From Neelides folsomi (Eukaryota > Arthropoda > Collembola > Neelipleona > Neelidae), in contig JAQGBZ010000288.1 of NCBI GenBank assembly GCA_034687125.1, positions 18,305 through 82,304 of the forward strand: DNA of 64,000 nt, written 5' to 3'. The notes beneath the pieces are model-generated. The model was given only the letters and a program-made list of their open reading frames with translations, ran no database searches and was not told the DNA's origin. Of the stretch, positions 1,258-43,300 are shown piece after piece. The first letter of the stretch is position 1. Every line of letters starts with the position of its first letter. Position numbers and translations under genes: made by a program.

Positions 1258-3554
1258 TCAGTTTTGGTCGATGCGCGGGTCGTCTAAGCTCGGAGGGTCG
1301 AGAATCCAAGACTCGAAATCCTCGGCCCCAGGTGAGAACCGAAGAGACTTCTTCTTACGCCCACTGAAATTTTCACAAAATTTTCTTCACTTGTTCTCAT
1401 CAAGGATTCATTTATTCGGGAATGTTCTCCGTAGCTCAACAAAGCTGTGGAGTCCCTCTGGGTTTAAATGGAGGCTTCTGCCTTCTCAAAACCCAAATTA
1501 ATCTCAAATAGGGAAAACTTGGGATTTCCATCCCTTTTTTAAAAACTTTCTTTCATTTCCCCCATCGTTCACCTTCAGCATGACGTAAATAGAGAGATTG
1601 AGAACTTTTACTTTAAAAACTCATTTCTTCATTTTGTACTCCGACTAATAGAAAGTTGGGGGGGCTGACAGGAATTTGTTCGTGTTATGTATACACGCGG
1701 ATTTACAACAAATTAATAGATTCATAAAGCTATTAAAAAATTTTAAAATCCAAATTTCCAATTTAAACCATCAACTTCAAATACACGTAATCTCATCTCA
1801 AAATAGAAAGTTTTCAGATTCGGAAAATACATTTAAATTGAGATTAACAAATATGAAATCTAATCTCATACTTTAAACTTATACTTATTTATAAATAAAC
1901 TAGTAAAACCATTTCAAACTTTTTAATCTCAAAAAAAACTTCAAAATTAAACTAATCCATAAGAATATATGAGGCATCAAATTGTAAATAGTGCACTTGA
2001 AAATAAAATAGGCCATACATACATGTCTAACATAATAATAATATTTAGTATATTTATCCTATAAATTGGAATTTGGATTAGATGAATGAAATTTCATGAT
2101 AAAATAATCCTTATCCAAATTGTTCTTTGCATTCTAGCAGAAAGGAAAACAAAAATTTGATGCTCAAAATGAACGATGGAGGGTTTTTCCACTCGAGTTA
2201 TTTAGGAAGGTTTTCCTATTTAAGTGGAAAGGCTTCGTATTCAAATTCGACTTGTGTGTTTAGTAAAAGTTTTGGTTAATGGAGGGGCCGAATTGACAAA
2301 GAGCTCTTTTGAAATAAACATTGAATAGACAACTCACATTTTGTCGAAATCGATGAGTTTAAATCCGTGATGACGTGTCAAGTCATTGTGGCGGTTCCAT
2401 TCCCGACGTGGGCCGTATTTCTGAAGGGCTAAAAGAGTCTCAAGTTCCGCCACTCGTTGATCCGACTGCCGCTTCTCCCTCATCCCTCTCCTGCAAAATT
2501 CAATAAGCATTTCCATGAATATTCCCACCCCTAATTTCCATCTCCAATGAGGAATTTTCAATTTTTCCTCAACTTTAACATTTTAAATGGTCCGGGGGTT
2601 ATTTCCCTACCGACCCATTGCAAACGGAAGTTTTTCCTTATGATAATAAACATCTAATGTATTTTATCTACCGTTTGTATCTACTTTTATTACAATTCCA
2701 AGCTGCTTGAAATACATGCAGTAACTATTATATAAACTCCTGGATGTTCAATGTTGTGGGATGTGGAATGTGGAAGAAAGAAGTTTGAAGGGATTTGGCC
2801 TACCGCAAATTAGAAAAGGATTAAAGTAATAGGAAGATGTTGGGGATTGAATGTTGGCCTTTTATTAATCCGCATAAGAAGAAAATGCTCGGATTTCTAT
2901 TCTTCAACAACGCCCACACTGGAAAGAACGATGGTTCAAATCCAAAAATTGGGAAAAACCATTTGGCCCCCTATTTATTAGTACAACATTCAGAGTTATC
3001 TCAATACTTTCCAATTACTCGTCTTATCGCTCAAAGGTCTTTATGGCGGATGATAGGAAAAGTGTAACAAGTGGATTTTCCAATAAAGTACATAAATTCA
3101 TCAAGATTCGACCTTCATGGGCAGACACCAAAAACGTCCCTTTCATTTTAACATACAAAATCTCACATTCTCAGTTACATTAGCAAAAATATAATTATAA
3201 AAAATTAATAAAAAATCTGTCATAGAGTAAAAAATGAAGAAGGGGAAAAAATAATTGCTTAAGATAATGAAGGCCTTACAGCCATGAAATTCGAGTTAAA
3301 GTGTATTTTAAACAAAGGGATATTGAATGTCCTCATTACTTCCTCAAAGGAATAATTGGATGTAAATTGTAATTTGGGCTGAAAAATGCTGATGAAATTT
3401 TCTCAACGATGCAGTGACGCCTTTTTTCAATCATGACAAGACAAATCAAAGGTATCAAAAATATTTCTTACGGAATGGCTGGTCTTGCCGAAACAAACAA
3501 ACTTCCAATGAAGATGAAGAAAACAATGCAGATGAGTTTATTGAAAACTTCCAT
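1258..3554 (-). CDS. Secreted peptide-hormone precursor, candidate insect PTH-like hormone (iPTH)
   Basis: Exons 3554-3472, 2490-2338 and 1363-1258 join in phase (83+153+106 nt) to 113 residues. Seen: a signal peptide (MEVFNKLICIVFFIFIGSLF, cleavage near residue 23), a short spacer, then REKR at 32-35. A 44-residue peptide follows (residues 36-79), starting with Gln (possible pyroglutamate) and ending in FDKI. Gly80-Arg-Lys-Lys-Lys supplies an amide donor and basic cleavage site; an acidic 29-residue tail ends at TGA. The peptide holds AELETLLAL and RREWNRHNDL, the latter resembling the EW/L/H spacing of vertebrate PTH. Introns have clean GTAAGA and GTGAGT donors. Inference: a neuroendocrine hormone for a family B GPCR; family assignment rests on recall of insect iPTH and is tentative, while the prepropeptide architecture is strong. 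Internal RR at 56-57 might be a second cleavage site. Confidence 0.8.
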
Positions 3555-3672
3555 TTTCCAAGTTGAGTTGATGTCAAAGAACCACTTTGGGATCACCGGT
3601 GTGATTGAACGCGAAGAGACGTTCTTCGTTCCTTTGGTGGAGTGAGAGTGAAGTAGAGTGAGGTATGTGGAG

Positions 3673-3683
3673 CCTTTTATATA
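3673..3683 (-). promoter_or_regulatory. TATA box of the PTH-like precursor gene
   Basis: Minus strand reads TATATAAAAGG. A start site about 25-30 bases downstream (near 3650) leaves a 5' leader of roughly 95 bases before the ATG at 3554, with no intron needed. Confidence 0.6.
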
Positions 3684-13500: not shown

Positions 13501-16500
13501 CCGTTCAGCTATAAATTAAGAAAAATGAACAACTCAACATGCAATTAAGCCTCACTTCCCACTCCAATTATTCTTTATATTTATATAAAATACAAAATTC
13601 ATTTTAAAGCTAATCGTCCAATGATTTGAATCCCTTACGATCGTTCGTGTTAGTCATGAAACCAAGTCCGGTGAGTTCGTTGTCAGCGAGGGCGGCTCTT
13701 GCACAAACTTCTTTTGCATATCCCTCCACCGTCCTATCACGTCCACCCGGTTCGCAGACCTTTAACCCCAAAATACAAATAAACATTTGGAACCATTTTA
13801 TAATAACAATTCGAAAGGGAAGGGATCGGTGGATCATTGTTTGTAATTAAAGTTTTATTTAATAATTAAGGATATTTTAATATAATTTTACTCCGTAATA
13901 TTTGTATATGATTTTTAAATGACCTTTTGAGGGCGACAAGTCTTGTACTTTCTGTCAGGTCCGTAGCATTGCGCCCCGCCGTTTTGTGGCCGAGGAGAAT
14001 CACATCTCCTCGCGGCGAGTCGAATCCCCGTTGAGTCATCAAGACACGAAGAAGAGCATTCAGTGAAGGGGGACCAACTCCCCCAACCGCCCTCGACAGC
14101 ATGGCCCGATGAAGAAGCCGCCGTTTCCGACCCGCGTCCCTCGTCCTCTCCAGCTACGCATTTCCCACCTCGACACCACTAGAAAAATGAAGAATGAGAT
14201 TGAGATGACTTGACCTCACAACTCACCATTCCCTTTCCACAAAAAGTTCCTTCAAGGGCCGGATGAGAAGTCCAAGTATAGTGATCCCGACGGCAATGGA
14301 GATCTCTGCAGACATCTTCAATGGGCTGCTGCCCAGCGTGGAAACTTCCTTTCCCATACTTCAATACGCCTTCATGGTGAATAAATGTATTAGAACTTAT
14401 TGTTAGGAAGATAAATATGTAGGTACTTAATAAACGTTGTATAGTAAATCCCCTATTGGCTTAATTAATAACATTGTTTATCTGCATCGAATCTCTGGCC
14501 CGGGAGTCTTCCATCTGCATCGTGAGCGAGTCGCGGATCGGCTTCCCCACTGTCGAAGAGACACTTGGCTTGGGGAGTTTCAAGAAAACTATCCAAGTAC
14601 TTTTGACTACAAGGAGACCATGTGATTTTTCCTGATCCCAACGTCGGCGACATGATGTGACTTGTTGGGTCGCAGTCATTTCCCGCCCCTGGGCCATCAT
14701 GGCGCATTCCAAGACTTAAAACAAGTCATAATTTTTATATATGATTCCGTGAATGAGCAGGCCAAGTGAATGTTTAAATTGATGCGAAATGATGTTTAAT
14801 TGTAAGTGAAAGGTGAAAATCATAAAATTAAGAATTTTTAAAATTCTTACTTGTGACCGATCTCATGAGCGACGACGTAAACGCTGAAAGAGAAAAGGAA
14901 ATAAGGCAAGGGATTAAAAGCAATTTGGGAAACCTTTCAAAGTGTCGTCCTTCATTGACGGTGCAGGAAGAGGATCGGGTGCACATGCCGGCAACAGGGG
15001 CGAGTCCCACCACTTGATTGCTCACTTTCCCTGAGCCGTGAACAACGTAGAGGTCAAGTCCAGTGAGGATCAAAGCGTGGTCCCAAGTCCCGTCTTTGTT
15101 CTCCCCTCTTTGCCACTTGCAAAAGCTCGTGAGGAAACGGTCGATGTCGAAGGGGCGCAGAAGGCCGGGCGGATCCTCCCTCAACACTTCCAACCGCTTC
15201 AGCACGAATCTCACTTTTCGACCCAATGAAGGGTCACCGTAAAGAAGCTGCACAGCATTGACCATGGCTAAGACCACACGTGTCACTTCCGCTTCCGCCT
15301 CATCCCCAAAATTGGCCTCCATGTGGGCAAAAAGGTCTTTGTCCACGAACACGGCTGTCTCGACCGTCAAGTCCCGTCTCACCTTCTCCACCAAGTTTTC
15401 TCCTGAGTCTGGTGGGCGGCCGATGCGCTGACCAAATACAGAATTTCCTTCCTCCTCAGGCTCAGTGAACCGATGGAGACTTCTTTTCGGCGGCCGACGA
15501 AGGTCTTCTTCTGTGCTCAGAGCGGCCAATTTGTCTTCGTAGTCTTCGTGAAATAGGAACCGGGGTCGGCCGGATCGGCGGAACGGCGGAGTGTCCGTCG
15601 ACCGATATCGCAGCCAATAAGAGTCCGTTGGAGCTCCGAGGGGAGTATAAGACCGGGAAGAACGGCGGGTCCGGGTGGATTTCCTCGTTGGCCAGACCAA
15701 CACAGCAGACGAGTTGAAGCGAGCAGGGAGGGGATGGAGGGAAAAATCGTTTTCTCCATCCCCAGACAATATCACACCTTTCTGTTGAATTCATTAATTT
15801 TGGTAAATTGATCATCAATCCAATCAATTCATCTCCTAATTAGAAGAAACTAAACTTTTGAATTTCTCACCAAACCGCCACAAAGATCCAAAGCTGCCGC
15901 TCCATGGGCCACTTCCTTTTCCTTCCCCAGTGGGTGGTGAGTGACGTGGGCATGGACGAAGCAAGAAGTGAGGGATTGGGCCATTCCACGACCGACCTCC
16001 TCCACACCGCCCCCGCCGCGGACCACGTGGACAAACTGAGGATGGAGAAGATCCGGATTGTGTCGGAATTTGAGGTGGAAGGATCGGCCGAGTGCTTTGA
16101 CTTCCATCCCATCTCCATCACCTATCCTCTCCGCCACCCCGACCTCCCTCACTAATAAAGAGGGAATTATGAATTAAATGGTTTGTAGACCGGAAGTGTT
16201 CCGCTCTCAAACCCACAGAGACACACACGCTCATTTTTCATTTTGGTTTTTCCTTTGGGGACTCTTCCCCATCCCTCATCGAAGAGACAGCAGAGAAAGG
16301 GAAGGTTCTTTGTTCTCCAAATTGGCCACGATCCACTTCCCCCTTCACTTTCCCGCTCAAGACAATCATGATTATTTTAACTGCAGGGACACGTGTGTAA
16401 TTGCCTCCAGGGGTTCTGCTCCACATGTGGATGATTTGGCCCGTGAAGGGCCGGAAGTCTCACCTGAACCTTCGTGGTCCGGCCCAAGGATCCGCTCCGC

Positions 16501-19380: not shown

Positions 19381-19890
19381 GGTCTCCTTCCCTTGTCATC
19401 AAACTCGCCCTCGTGCGCCCTCAAAAGAGAATAAAGAAGGCTGTTACGCTGCCCGACTGACCACTCAACTTTCTCCAAACAATCTCAACGTTTTTTCAAA
19501 CCTACGCCGTTCTTCATCATTAAGGTAAATTCTTCAATTCTATCTGTATTGTATCTATGATTTAACAAAGCCAGTCAATTGTAGACTAGATGTGAGTAGA
19601 TTATATATAATGAATGAATATATATATAATGAAGAGATGAATACATTTTAATGATAGATTAAAAATATGTAATTTAACAAAACCAATACATTGTATATGT
19701 ATATAGATTTTAATGTTCAATATTTTGATTTTACAAAAATCTTATGTAGGGTGGGTAGATTTTATTAATATTTTTCATTTAAATTGTGTGATTTCGCCAA
19801 GTTAATATTTAGTAGAGGTGCGTAGATTTTAATTTTACTTGAATTATTAATTAATTTATTAATTTTTCTCTATTGGGTGTTGATTTCAGA

Positions 19891-22800
19891 ATGGAGCAAA
19901 GAAGGCCTTTTGGTAGGGGTCGCGGAATGGGACGTGGTGTGCAGAGAGAACCCGGCTACATCACTCCTGAATCTCAATCTGAAACGAACATTGCCTTGTC
20001 ATCCCTCTCTGGAGAAATGTCGAGTCTTACAACTGAATCTGATGATGTATCGGGAGTTGGAGATGCTGGAAAGCCCAGCAACAGAGGAACTCCTTATTGG
20101 GAGGCTGGGACGAGGATGAGACCTGTCGAAAGTCACCCACTTCCCGATACTGATGAAGACGGTGCGCCCCGGACCGCGGCTTCACGAGGAAGCTCCCTTG
20201 AAAGAAGAATTACATCCTACAAAGTCCCACCATTGCCAGAATCTCCCATGGATGAACGTTCTGCCGAATTGCTCAAAGTTGTCGGAGATGAGCAAGGACA
20301 CATTCCGGGGGATATTCCTAAGCGTGGAGGCCATCGCGCAGTCGGGGTGGAACCTGGAAATTGGCGTAACACCATCCAAACCAGGAGCAAAACCCTGGAG
20401 AGCAAAGTGGGGAAGAATGGAAAGTCAGTGGAGTTGATGTCCAATTACTTCAAGCTGATCCAGTCCAAGGATTGGACTCTCTACAACATCCCTGTCAGAT
20501 TCTCCCCACCAGTGGACGAAAAGAACTCACGACGTTGGCTGATCCGACAAATTTCCGAAGACATCGCTCCTTATGTCTGGGACGGGGCGAATCTCTTCAC
20601 CGTCAATGCATTGTGCGAAAAGGGAAAACAGAGGACTTGGACTATTCCAGACCCCAAGACTGCCTCCAACGTGACCATCAGCATGGAAGATTCCTACAAG
20701 ATTCCGAGCGGGGACCCGCAATGCTTCCAGCTCTACAACCTCATCATTCGCAAATGCATGCTCGGGATGAAGTTGGAAGAACTCGGACGACACTTCTACG
20801 ACCCGAATCAAGAAATATTTATTAAAGAAGCCCAGCTCCGTTTGTGGCCTGGATTCATCACGTCCATGAGACCTCACGAGCGGGACGTTCTTATGTGCGT
20901 CGAAATCACCCACAAGGTCCTGAGGGCTGAAACGGCCTACGACATCGTCCAGGAGCTTTTAAGGGAACATGGAAGAGACCCAAAGGGCCAACAGAGAATC
21001 TCGGACGAGTTGGTCGGCCAGGTTGTGCTGACAACATATGGGAACAAGACGGCTTCATATCGGATCGACGACGTCAAATGGTCCATGAATCCAATGGCCA
21101 CCTTTGAGAAGCGGGTGAAAGGGGAGAAGGGCGCGGAGCCGAAGACGGCCCCAATCTCCTTCGCCCAATACATGCTCGAGAGATACAACATGAAAGTGAA
21201 TGACACGAAGCAGCCGCTTCTCGTGTCCAAGCCGAAGAAGAAGACAATCCACAGTGGGGAAGTGCAGAATGTTTTGCTCATCCCGGAGTTCTGCCAAATG
21301 ACTGGTCTCACTGATCGAATGAGGGCCAATTTCAACCTCATGAAGAGTTTGGCTACTCATCTCCATCAAGGACCGGGGACGAGGATTGGCTCAATCAAGA
21401 AATTCATTAACTCACTTCACTCAACGGATGAGGTAATTTTTTTACTTTGATATTATTACTAAAATTATTATCATTACTTTAAATAAAAATTAATTAGTTG
21501 ATAATTTGTTAATGTGAAATTAAAATTTAACGTTATATTTTCGTTTCAGTTGGTGAAGGAGCTTAAGAGCTGGGACATGAGATTCGACAAAGAACTCATC
21601 ACCTTCCCGGGAAGAATCCTCAACCGAGAAACGATCCTATTTGGAAATGGAGGAACTGAGGCCCCAAACCAAGAGGCTGATTGGACCATGGGATTTAGAA
21701 GTAATTTTTTTATTCTTCAATTAAATATTTATAAATAGATATTTTATTTGAATATATAATATAGGTTCCAGAAGTTCTTTAATTTTACTTATTCTAATTT
21801 GCTTATATTTATTTTTTAGAACAAAAACTCTTTTCTGTGGTCAACATGAACAAATGGGTGTTGGTGTCTCCTTTTCGAGAAAGGCAAGCAGCGGACACTT
21901 TCGTCATGACCATGCAAAAAGTCGGGAAACCAATTGACATGCAAATTGTCAGGCCACTCGAAGTCGTTACCGTTGGGGATGTGAAGCCGGTGACGTACAT
22001 CAAGGAAATCAAGAATGTCATCGCGAAACATAAGAATGATCTTCAAATGGTTTTCGTCGTTCTTCCCAACAATAAAACTGAATTGTACAACGCGGTCAAG
22101 AAATGTCTTGGAGTTGATTATGGAAGTAAGTTTTTATTATTTTTACATATTACATTAAAATTGTTATTTATTCATCAATAATTATTTTATCACTTTTACA
22201 CTTTCTCATGCAATTTCTACTTTAATCATTGCTTATTTAATTTCCAGTTCCATCTCAATGTTTCTTGTCCAAGAACGTCCAGAAGAATAACATGTCAGTG
22301 GCGACGAAGGGAGTAATTCAAATGAGTGCAAAAATCGGCGGAGAACCTTGGAGCGTCAAACTTCCCCTTAAGGACTTGATGGTCGTTGGATTTGACGTCT
22401 ACCATGACAAAAGCTCGAGAGGCAAAACAGTTGGTGCAATGGTTGCTTCCATGTCCCCCACTTTGGCCAAATATTATTCATTGACTTCGTATCATTCAAC
22501 GGATACAGAACTGAGCAACAACATGGCTGACATGATTATTGGTAAGTTCCCTTTTCGAATCTCTTTATTTGGTTCAATGGCCAAAATATTGATATTTATT
22601 TTCAAATTCCAGAATGCTGCCAAGAATACAAAAAGGTGAACGGGAGCCTCCCCAAACGGATCATCCTTTATCGTGATGGAGTCTCAGACGGACAAGTGGA
22701 CTTTGTTGTAAGGAGCGAACTCCAAACGATCATTTCTTCTCTTGAGAGTCACTGCAAGGCTGCAGAAGCGGACGAGGTCAAGTTGACATTCATCATCTGC

Positions 22801-29877: not shown

Positions 29878-31662
29878 ATGTCCTTGCCATCAAGAAGTCT
29901 GAGTCTTTTCCAAAGAATTAAACCTTGTAAGTCAAAATCACAAACAATATAAATTAAAGTATATCATTTAACAAATATATGGTAAACTTATGCAAGCCTG
30001 AATTTGAAATTTAAAGATTGTCATTGTTTTTAAGACCCTTTGATTTGGAGATCGTATGGGAAATTATCCGAGAATTGGCAGCCGAAACGGGCTCTTATTT
30101 TAACTAAATTGTCAAGGTTGGAGTTTGAGAAACTTCGTCACCCGGGAATCTCCGATGATGACCTTGAAAAGAAATTAAGGCACCGAGGATCAGATTACAG
30201 TACACTTCTTTACCATCATTATATTCATAAGGTTCGGATCTTCGCCAGCCTTTTTCTTCAATTTTAACTTTTATTTTTCATTAAGGGCTGCGAGAATCGA
30301 GTCGACAAATGCTTCAGAGAAATCGGAGTGGAAACCAAAGTCATAAATAGATTTGAGTACAATGATGTAAGTGCACTATATCATTTACTTTCAAAATATT
30401 GCTATGTAATTAAAATTAATTCTCCATTTCAGTTTACTTTGACAGAATTAATAATTAAATACTCTATAGATGCATATTTCCAAGGTCTATTAAAATTGTA
30501 TACTTTACAGGATAATATCAATTGGGCAGATGTGATCGTGACTACAGGCGGAGATGGAACTTTCCTAATGGCAGCATGCCGAATTACCGACAGGAACAAA
30601 CCAGTCATTGGCTTCAACACCGACCCAACAAGGTCTGAGGGATATCTCTGTCTGCCCAAGAAATACTCCATAGCAATTGGAGAAGCCGTGAAAAAGATCT
30701 ACGAAGGGAAGTTCAAGTGGACTTTCCGGAAAAGGATTCGAATCACACTCAAAGGCAACTCAGCCTTCCAAGTTCCTGTAGAACTCCACGACCAACAACT
30801 TCATCATCCTGAAAACAGGTAAAGTGGAAATGGCTAGCCAATTAGTTGTAAAAATATACTCTTATCCATTATTCTTAATAAGGATTGGGTATTTGAAGAT
30901 TCTTTGAATGCTTCCGCGAGCCGTTGAAACGACGAACTGAAGATCTCCATCGGCTTCAAACCAGAGTTCTTCCTGCCCTCGCTCTCAACGAGGTTCGATA
31001 AATTATTATTATTATTTCAACTCCATTATTATTCACAGAATTTCTCAATTGTTAATTGTAAAGGTTTACATCGGAGAGTGCGTTTCTGCTCGAGTTTCTT
31101 ACTTTGAAATGGCCGTTGATGGACGTGAGCCGGTAAAGACGAAAAACGCCGGGCTTTGTGTCTGCACCGGGACTGGGTCAACTTCATGGGCCTACAACAT
31201 CTCCAAGATTTCCCCACAGACAGTGGAAGAAATTCTAAGGATCCTCCAAGAAGAAGAAGGAATACCCGAACTCCCAGCTGCCAAAATGCTTCTTGACCGA
31301 GTCACAAAATCCTACAATTCCCGCCTTGCTTTCCATCCAGGTTAAATGGAAATCTTAATAGCAATTTAGAGATTAATTGGAAATTTTTAATAATTTAAAT
31401 ATGAATTTGATCTTCAGAACGGAAAGAAATGTTGTACACGCTCCGGGATCTCATATCGTCCTATACTTTGCCCTACGCAGTGGAAATTCCATCCCGGGCT
31501 TTTGCCTCCCGCCTCGAAGTTCGATCCCGTTGTTTCGATGCCTGTTTAGTTATCGACGGAGGTTTGACCTTCACTTTTAATGATGGAGCTGTTGCAGTGT
31601 TCGAAATGCACGATGCAGATGCTCTGAGAACAATCATTGATGTCAATGATTCAGACGACTGA
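29878..31662 (+). CDS. NADK2: Mitochondrial NAD kinase 2
   Basis: Phosphorylates NAD+ to NADP+ in the mitochondrial matrix with ATP. Exons 29878-29926, 30035-30231, 30286-30366, 30511-30818, 30899-30992, 31064-31340 and 31418-31662 give 417 codons, 416 residues, close to family length. Seen: basic/Ser N-terminus MSLPSRSLSLFQRIKP fitting a transit peptide, HHYIHKGCENRVDKCFREIG, the GGDGT kinase motif at 122-126 (VTTGGDGTFLMAA), IGFNTDPTRSEGYLCLPKKY, LALNEVYIGECVSARVSYFE, CTGTGSTSWAYNI, and near the C-terminus FNDGAVAVFEM. The run of blocks is that of NADK2 rather than cytosolic NADK. Exons 2 and 5 end in unusual donors (AAG|GTTCGG, GAG|GTTCGA), but both junctions are demanded by the protein and by frame. 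Confidence 0.95.
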
Positions 31663-40319: not shown

Positions 40320-43300
40320 TTACTCAGCTTCTTCCTCTTCTTCATCTCCCTTCCTTTTGAAGATGGAAAAGAAGCTCTTGGGCTTCGCTTCTGGCGCCAT
40401 TAGCATCGGGACGCGATTCTTGTGAGATATGCGAATCTAAACAAAAGGATGCTAAAGAAAGTGGAATGGGAAATATTTGCTTACGGTTGACGGCGGTTGC
40501 ATCCAGGGCTCTCCGTCAATTTGCATTGGGAGCCGTTTCTTGGAGCGGATGACAACGGTGGAACATTGAGCCAACCGCTTGCCCGAAGCTCGCAATCCAG
40601 TTTTCACTTGACCCATGTGAAGACAATTCTCAAGCCCGATCACTTCAATCAATTTGTCCCCAATATCTGAATAATAGCAAGTTCATTAATTAGATTAAAT
40701 TAATTAGATTTCATTAATTATTTCGTTAATTAAATTTAATAAATTAAATCTGGCGAATAAATGATTTAATATGTAAAAATGAAACCTTGGACAGCAGTGG
40801 AGATGTCTGCATTGGATGCTTCCGACTCACCACGTTTGGTTCTCTTGTTGGCTCGTTTACGAGACAATTGATCTCCCCAGAGATTCGTCCCTCCATGTGT
40901 ATAAGGAATGTTGAGAATGGCCAAACCCTGAAGGGCCGGACCTTGGCTTAAATCAAGTGCCACCCCGTCGCACTATTAAAAAACCAATTATTTATCCTTT
41001 TCTAAACTAATTCCCTTACAAGTCGAAATTATACGTGAAACATAAGACATAATGTTAAACACATACATTAAGAGGAAATGGCCCTTTTATGCAAATTTTA
41101 TTTTAATCATTAAAAATTTTCCCTTTAATGTTAGTTGAATGGGCTATTTGAGGAATTGGTAAAATTATAATTTGTAATTTTCTTGATTGATTGTTCAAAA
41201 ACGTCATAGAGCTAAAGCCTTGTGGGCATTCAGAATTTGCCAAGATGTACAGAAGTATGTATTTATATGAGGAAAGTATGCAAATATTTGTTTAGGTATA
41301 CTTTTAGAGCATAGGAAGAAAGTTGGAAGAAAGAGCTGGGAGAAAATTGCACAAGATTTGCATTTTAAAAGTGAAAGTGGAGATTTAATGTTGGATGTGA
41401 TAAATGAACGGAGCACCTGGAAGAACTCGTTAAAAACTCACCTCAACCTCAATCTCTTGATGGAGATTTTTGCAAGAAGAGGCGAACTGCTCGGTCATTC
41501 CATACTCAAAATACCACATTTTGTTCCTCATCCGAGAGTTGAACTTGTGGGGATTTTTCTCTCGCTCCACGTGGAATTTGACACAGATGGCCGCGTCCTG
41601 CATGAAGCCATTGAAAAACCCATTTACCTCACAACTTTCCCACTCAATCCAACTCCCCAAATGAAATGAGTCCTACCACGCCAACGGAAAAGTAATTGTT
41701 GATGATGTTGAATGGGATGGGATCCCCAGGCTTGTCGTCGACCTCATCCTGGCTAATGTTGATCTCCCATCGGTCCATCATGACTTCGGTAGCTTTCTCG
41801 ATTTTCTATTTCAAACAGCCCCGGGGTTAACAAAAGGACCGAGGTTTAACCTCCGCTACCTCGAGAATCTTGTTGAGACTTTCGCCCTCATAACCGCCGC
41901 CCCATCGGAGACACCGAGCGAGATCATTCCCCGTTCCGAGCGGAATCACCCCAACGGTAGGAGGATGGGCAAATTGAATCTTGTCTACATTAGTAAATTT
42001 AAAGGTATAGCAAGGCCTTTTAGGTTAGGGTGGGTTAGGGTAATTTACCCATGGTGTCGAGTATCCAACCAACGGTTCCATCGCCGCCACAACAAATGAT
42101 TCTGAGTGACGGGACATCTTTGAACATTTGAAGAATGGCCCATGGATTTGTATGAGCAAGGTTGTAAACCTGGCGCGGATTGAGGATGTACTGAAACTTC
42201 CTCAACAGCCGCGGGCCTTGACGACCCCCACTTTTGGGGTTTATAAAGACTAGGAGCGGGCGAGTGTCCGGGAGAGGTGAGATCTGAAATGAAGTTGGTC
42301 CGGTGGCTCCAGGTGTGAACACCGTGGCGATATTTCCCCCTTCGGATGACGACCGTCGCTGTTGAAAAGAAATTAAGGGAAATCGGAGAAAGGGGAGGCT
42401 TACGCGGGAAGGACCGGCCACGGGTTCTTCTCTTCCCATGCTCGAATTGGCTCGACGATCTCTTGAGAAAGATCTCTGACGGTCAAGGATGACTGGACAG
42501 ATGCAAATGGGTGGGATGATGTGGCTTCGATGAGCTCCCAAAGTACATTCAGTTTTCACGCCAGACACACATTTAGTGTGGAGCTGCATATTTAAACCAA
42601 AAGTAAATCGGAAGTATGGGGATATCAATTAAAGAATTTACCGTCATGTGACACCATCGACAATGCTGACCAGACATTCCGCTGCCTGACTTGACCTTCT
42701 TCTTGCACTTGCTACACTTCCCATGGCAATTCCCCATGACCCAATGGTGATGCATGACCTGCTGTGCCTTCCGGGACTTGACATACGTTGCGATGCACGT
42801 GGCTGGATTCCGTTGAACACAACGTTCATGGACAGTGTATTTGCAAACTAAAAGGGGAGCGGGAAAAACTTATAAATATGAACAGACCATTATGGGAAAG
42901 TAAAGAAGGACCTAATGGGAATTGAGGAAATCAACTCTGAATTATTGCGCGACGGAGATGGGGGAAGGGAGGAAATAAAAAATAAATGGTCTCCGTTGCT
43001 AGACGTCATGAGGGCCCAATTGAGGAAGGTCAATGGAGGATTGGTTAAGATGGTCCTTACAAACACAGCAGAGGCCCTTCTTCCCCACACCCACGAGCAT
43101 GTTGAGGCAGAAGTTGCAGTAGGCGGATCTGTTGAAGTGCTTCAGCCTCCAAAAATGCGTCCCATCTTCCTTCACGTTCTGAAGAAACCAAAGTTTATGA
43201 CTATGATGAACATTATTGTCCACCGGAATCGATACTTTGGCTCTGGCCCATCATCTCCCGTCTTACTCCACTTTCCCCCGTATGTTCCTCAGACCATTCC

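Follow-up and report, generated by a model that had tools for sequence, protein, structure and literature searches.

The minus strand of the window, by which we mean the whole analysed stretch of 64,000 nucleotides (C288:18305-82304), very probably carries an iPTH neuropeptide gene, of the PXXXamide/QSGamide type, of a small-genome pancrustacean. The source genome comprises 75.1 Mb in 840 contigs. The gene adds one member to an already known hormone family and is not a new kind of gene. The original prediction had proposed an undescribed-looking arthropod hormone of the PTH type. Its novelty is not supported, because the family is already known as PXXXamide, QSGamide or iPTH and is reported as deorphanised in 2020 (PMC7224569). 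The assignment as a PTH-type arthropod precursor is upheld by the family marks, the cleavage and amidation sites and a receptor in the same genome, but not by the likeness to vertebrate PTH that had been offered as evidence.

Gene structure

The gene model, obtained by script and by reading, consists of three short coding exons on the minus strand (83, 153 and 106 nt), which together give 342 nt, that is 113 codons and a stop. All junctions are GT-AG and the exons join into a single frame; the claim that three exons of these lengths would close in phase was reproduced exactly. A TATA element (TATATAAAA; 3675..3683, minus strand), read by eye and also found by script, starts at 3683, 129 nt 5' of the ATG. 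Exon 1 (3472..3554, minus strand, 83 nt) contains the ATG, a stretch that looks signal-like by eye (residues 1-23) and RPAIP, and ends at the donor CATTCC/GTAAGA, where the slash marks the junction. Exon 2 (2338..2490, minus strand, 153 nt) begins at the acceptor TTTTGCAG/GAG, encodes the REKR site and nearly the whole mature peptide, and ends at the donor CAAAAT/GTGAGT. The mature 44-mer QSDQRVAELETLLALQKYGPRREWNRHNDLTRHHGFKLIDFDKI is encoded by 2338..2468 (minus strand), with base 1363 completing the last Ile codon. Exon 3 (1258..1363, minus strand, 106 nt including the stop) follows the acceptor ATTTCAG/TGG and encodes GRKKK, the C-terminal peptide SLRFSPGAEDFESWILDPPSLDDPRIDQN and the stop. 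Downstream of the stop the window contains one ATTAAA, 646 nt away, and no AATAAA.

When bare GT and AG were the only rule, a listing whose filter excluded the 153-nt exon itself gave ten further joins, using different donors or acceptors, that also closed the frame. Judged by reading, their splice sites are poorer than those of the model given here. Since other frame-closing joins exist, the exact junctions rest on site quality.

Matches to other protein families lie elsewhere in the window. Exons of an Argonaute-type gene lie at 19855-21447 and 22241-22636 on the plus strand (PAZ, E 7.2e-28; Piwi, E 9.6e-18). Open frames matched the reprolysin (M12B) zinc metalloprotease family (14831-15790, minus strand; E 5.7e-7), NAD kinase (30268-30819, plus strand; E 9.9e-7) and the diacylglycerol kinase catalytic domain (42038-42628, minus strand; E 4.8e-15). 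The genome also includes a mitochondrial contig, C742, of 15,157 bp, in which a tRNA scan placed trnL(taa) between cox1 and cox2. With COX1 assigned by profile and the remaining protein genes named by eye from their translations, the order is nad2, cox1, trnL2, cox2, trnK, trnD, atp6, cox3, nad3, nad5, nad4, nad4L, nad6, cytb, nad1, where nad5, nad4, nad4L and nad1 lie on the opposite strand to the rest. This is the gene order of the ancestral pancrustacean mitochondrial genome, which makes a crustacean or hexapod the most likely host; a chelicerate, also considered, was dropped in the light of the tRNA scan.

Precursor anatomy

The predicted 113-residue precursor reads MEVFNKLICIVFFIFIGSLFVSA-RPAIPRGM-REKR-QSDQRVAELETLLALQKYGPRREWNRHNDLTRHHGFKLIDFDKI-GRKKK-SLRFSPGAEDFESWILDPPSLDDPRIDQN. 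Residues 1-23 (MEVFNKLICIVFFIFIGSLFVSA) are signal-like in composition, and exon 1 passes a test for at least 10 hydrophobic residues in 14. The REKR site occupies residues 32-35, the 44-mer, which starts QSDQ and ends FDKI, residues 36-79, and GRKKK residues 80-84. The TATA box, signal peptide, REKR, 44-mer from Gln to FDKI and GRKKK were all found where the original prediction had placed them.

AlphaFold2, run on the single sequence of mature residues 1-43, gave a model with helices at 2-18 and 20-33 and an irregular end (mean pLDDT 76.9, pTM 0.39). This predicted two-helix form agrees with a class B1 ligand without being diagnostic of one. Searching the genome with the 44-mer returned this gene as the single match and no second copy up to E = 10. 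At E values up to 10, no Pfam family matched the precursor and PTH was not among its PDB matches.

Membership of the iPTH family

Xie et al. (2020; PMC7224569) deorphanised PXXXamide in Tribolium castaneum, describing it as ligand for the insect PTH receptor and naming it iPTH. As given in that source, the marks of the family are a signal peptide, KR, a mature peptide with a highly conserved SD near its start, a strictly conserved G with two basic residues, and then a C-terminal extension; Pro at -4, the source of the name PXXXamide, was only mildly conserved in an expanded survey (PMC7224569). The peptide is reported there from many insects and other arthropod taxa, and as absent from Diptera and Lepidoptera. 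QSGamide is described as the same family in annelids, molluscs and brachiopods (PMC8557429), and the oyster members have been named PYKIamide and PIKIamide (PMC8398477).

The precursor has a signal peptide, judged by composition, and KR directly before the mature peptide, within REKR (residues 32-35). SD follows within QSD, mature residues 1-3; the G and two basic residues are found in GRKKK (residues 80-84), and a C-terminal extension is present. Position -4 from the amide is Phe (FDKI) and not Pro, which is not a defining feature, because Xie et al. call it only mildly conserved. The iPTH precursors of Tenebrio and Zophobas are listed at 110 (PMC9552230), close to the 113 aa found here.

For the C-terminus, a comparison with Tribolium iPTH, which had been proposed together with the original prediction, gave a positive result. 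The last 14 residues of the Tribolium peptide are given within the 15-letter antigen CTMPVGGGRIDPGRI-amide (PMC7224569), whose first Cys we took as added for coupling, leaving TMPVGGGRIDPGRI. With the C-termini aligned without gaps, TRHHGFKLIDFDKI and TMPVGGGRIDPGRI were identical at 5 of 14 positions, a comparison of only 14 residues with one member of the family (p about 0.001). Shuffling gave p = 0.0004 for identities, and 0.0016 and 0.0008 for the score under two shuffling schemes.

The iPTH homology is carried by these 14 residues and a two-residue mark, and no profile matches the precursor. The gene might then encode a secreted amidated peptide from an orphan family that is confined to this lineage and shares only general neuropeptide anatomy, with the true iPTH gene elsewhere. 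We consider this improbable, as one gene combines SD, the C-terminal match and the amidation site, and the PTHR-type receptor described below needs a ligand.

A PTHR-type receptor in the same genome

The genome yielded 25 matches to the 7tm_2 profile, all above the family cut-off, and translations of five genes (C24 at 133 kb, C125, C41, C315 and C775) looked class B1-like by eye. Three of the five (C24, C125 and C41) were compared with PDB, where the references are solved vertebrate receptors and not named insect iPTHRs. The C24 receptor (131.65-140.02 kb, minus strand) matched PTH1R (220.6 bits) and PTH2R (219.8 bits) first, followed by the secretin receptor (201.7 bits) and the glucagon receptor (200.1 bits). 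For C125 and C41, calcitonin-type receptors came first (158.0 and 153.3 bits, respectively).

Two HRM matches lie upstream of the C24 transmembrane domain on the same strand. The match at C24:139910-140020 was the best of 17 in the genome, and that at C24:137879-137977 was below the cut-off on its own. For the joined ectodomain, PTH1R again ranked first (65.9 bits), narrowly ahead of the calcitonin receptor (61.4 bits), below which PTH2R came (58.1 bits). The original prediction had suggested looking for a family B PTH-type receptor, and such a receptor was found, with PTH1R first for both transmembrane domain and ectodomain. We conclude from these comparisons that the C24 gene clearly has the sequence expected of a PTHR-type class B1 receptor, and that predicted ligand and receptor co-occur in one genome.

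No second close copy of the C24 transmembrane domain was found in the genome, the next match being C125 with 42% identity over 67 residues. HRM matches paired with no 7tm domain were seen at C24:194837-194977 (plus strand) and C402:22301-22408 (minus strand), and may belong to further class B1 receptors. As these two matches are not tied to a receptor, the genome could conceivably hold a second PTHR.

Likeness to vertebrate PTH and other class B ligands

The pattern RREW..H..L..RHHGF had been read as resembling the receptor-binding helix of PTH. When PTH Ser-1 is aligned with the peptide's Ser-2, the residues S1, L11, R20, E22, W23, R25 and H32 agree (7/34, ungapped). PTH Arg-20 and Trp-23 are receptor contacts. 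The agreement had p = 0.004 in this fixed register and, over all registers, 0.087 for identities and 0.42 for the score. We also aligned the peptide with 14 vertebrate class B ligands. Local alignment gave shuffle p values of 0.32 for PTH, 0.66 for PTHrP and 0.36 for TIP39, and semi-global alignment 0.066, 0.79 and 0.44, respectively. The local alignment with PTH was thus equalled by 32% of shuffles and the semi-global alignment by 6.6%, and the likeness cannot serve as the evidence it was taken for. The best semi-global score among the 14 ligands was that of PTH (21); the best local scores were those of urocortin 1 (28, p = 0.044 uncorrected) and GIP (27, p = 0.093). Homology to vertebrate PTH by alignment was rejected as unproven, as the scores do not exceed those of shuffles. 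Tribolium iPTH itself is reported to share less than 12% identity with human PTH, PTHrP and TIP39 (PMC7224569).

We treat the PTH-like motif as a lead and not as evidence of membership. It could be that the peptide keeps PTH residues (Ser-1, Leu-11, Arg-20, Glu-22, Trp-23, Arg-25 and His-32) as a sequence link, and that the ligands of protostome iPTH and vertebrate PTH, not the receptors alone, come from one ancestor; we regard this as doubtful.

The urocortin 1 score raises another identity for the peptide, a true amidated neuropeptide belonging to a different class B1 type (e.g. CRF/DH44-like) that acts on another class B1 receptor. Its length and C-terminal Ile-amide would fit, and the genome holds other class B1 receptors. 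However, the urocortin 1 p value fails to survive 14 comparisons, and the peptide lacks a visible N-terminal motif of the typical CRF/DH44 kind. Both SD near its start and the Tribolium C-terminal fit point to iPTH, and a PTHR-type receptor is present, which makes a CRF/DH44-like identity very unlikely.

Comparison with chance

We scanned both strands of the window for the anatomy of the gene: an ATG exon with a hydrophobic stretch, a 120-210-nt exon whose GTRAG donor follows a dibasic site by 30-50 codons, and further downstream an acceptor that, once joined, yields G[KR][KR] no more than three residues from the junction. The control was 1000 dinucleotide-preserving shuffles of the window. 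Because the rules were written after the gene had been seen, the following shuffle counts are a guide and no clean probability. The full scan returned two models on the minus strand and none on the plus strand; 7 of the 1000 shuffles contained one or more. Dropping the signal exon raised this to six models in the window and to 125/1000 shuffles with one or more. When SD was demanded within nine residues of the dibasic site, this gene alone remained in the window and none of the 1000 shuffles gave a model. The second model passing the full scan (57112-56959 of the window, minus strand; IREKRQFGGSNAFASANSFAGGGYNPYGGYGGGFPGGSFSQASAAANSFG) has a Gly/Ser/Ala-rich sequence after an REKR site.

Codon usage ranked the frame of the model best among the three forward frames in each of the three exons; in exon 1, one reverse frame scored slightly higher (6.72 vs 6.35). 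In a sample of 1641 stop-free 50-codon stretches from the window, real exons included, 468 scored as high as exon 2 or higher, and codon bias was rejected as proof of coding because it is too weak. A sigma-70 promoter scan was discarded as inapplicable to an animal gene.

Unremarkable exon lengths, this weak codon bias, the recurrence of exons 2 and 3 in shuffles when the signal exon is dropped, and the selection introduced by an original search by eye would all suit splice sites and open frames assembled by chance with no gene, but the rarity of the whole anatomy in shuffles, above all with SD, the near-consensus donors and acceptors and the TATA element at a plausible place make such an accident scarcely credible.

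Proposed processing and action

Transcription, processing, amidation, release and activation of the C24 receptor are predicted steps, which we draw from general neuropeptide and class B1 biology. The signal peptide would direct the precursor into the secretory pathway, where a prohormone convertase would cut after REKR and within GRKKK. A carboxypeptidase would then remove the basic residues and PHM/PAL would convert Gly-80 to the C-terminal amide, and the N-terminal Gln may cyclise to pyroglutamate. Cu-monooxygenase domains are present in the genome; PHM belongs to this family, but so do other enzymes.

The amidated 44-mer, for which a largely helical form is predicted, might be secreted by neurons or by endocrine cells of the gut; both were stained for iPTH in Tribolium (PMC7224569). 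At the C24 receptor, the C-terminal half of the peptide would dock on the cysteine-rich ectodomain, and the N-terminal SD end would enter the transmembrane bundle. The system may influence cuticle maturation and fecundity, a suggestion drawn solely from the analogy with Tribolium. RNAi of the Tribolium ligand is reported to have given no phenotype, for which the authors suggest incomplete knockdown or another ligand (PMC7224569).

Comparison with known systems

With this gene, a small-genome pancrustacean joins a young hormone family. Its set of a single ligand gene and a single detected receptor is simpler than that of Tribolium, which has two receptors. If the PTH-like residues are conserved in relatives, a common descent of the vertebrate PTH and protostome iPTH ligands becomes testable from sequence.

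The predicted precursor shares with that of Tribolium iPTH the signal peptide, KR, SD, the G with two basic residues, the C-terminal extension and five of the 14 C-terminal residues, and in both cases a PTHR-type receptor is present in the genome. In contrast, the Tribolium peptide ends PGRI and the peptide described here FDKI, without Pro at -4, and the two iPTHRs of Tribolium compare with one PTHR-type transmembrane domain found here.

Like vertebrate PTH, PTHrP and TIP39, the peptide is helical, here by prediction, with a basic-acidic-Trp patch, and the nearest solved relative of the C24 receptor is PTH1R. PTH(1-84) is not known to be amidated, whereas amidation is predicted for the peptide described here.

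Compared by motif names, the lophotrochozoan QSGamide/QSamide and PXXXamide peptides (PMC8557429, PMC8398477) have the same QS start. The oyster QSamide3/PXXXamide gene is reported to be alternatively spliced (PMC8398477). By name, the oyster PYKIamide and PIKIamide also share the C-terminal K-I-amide, which ends the peptide described here as FDKIamide.
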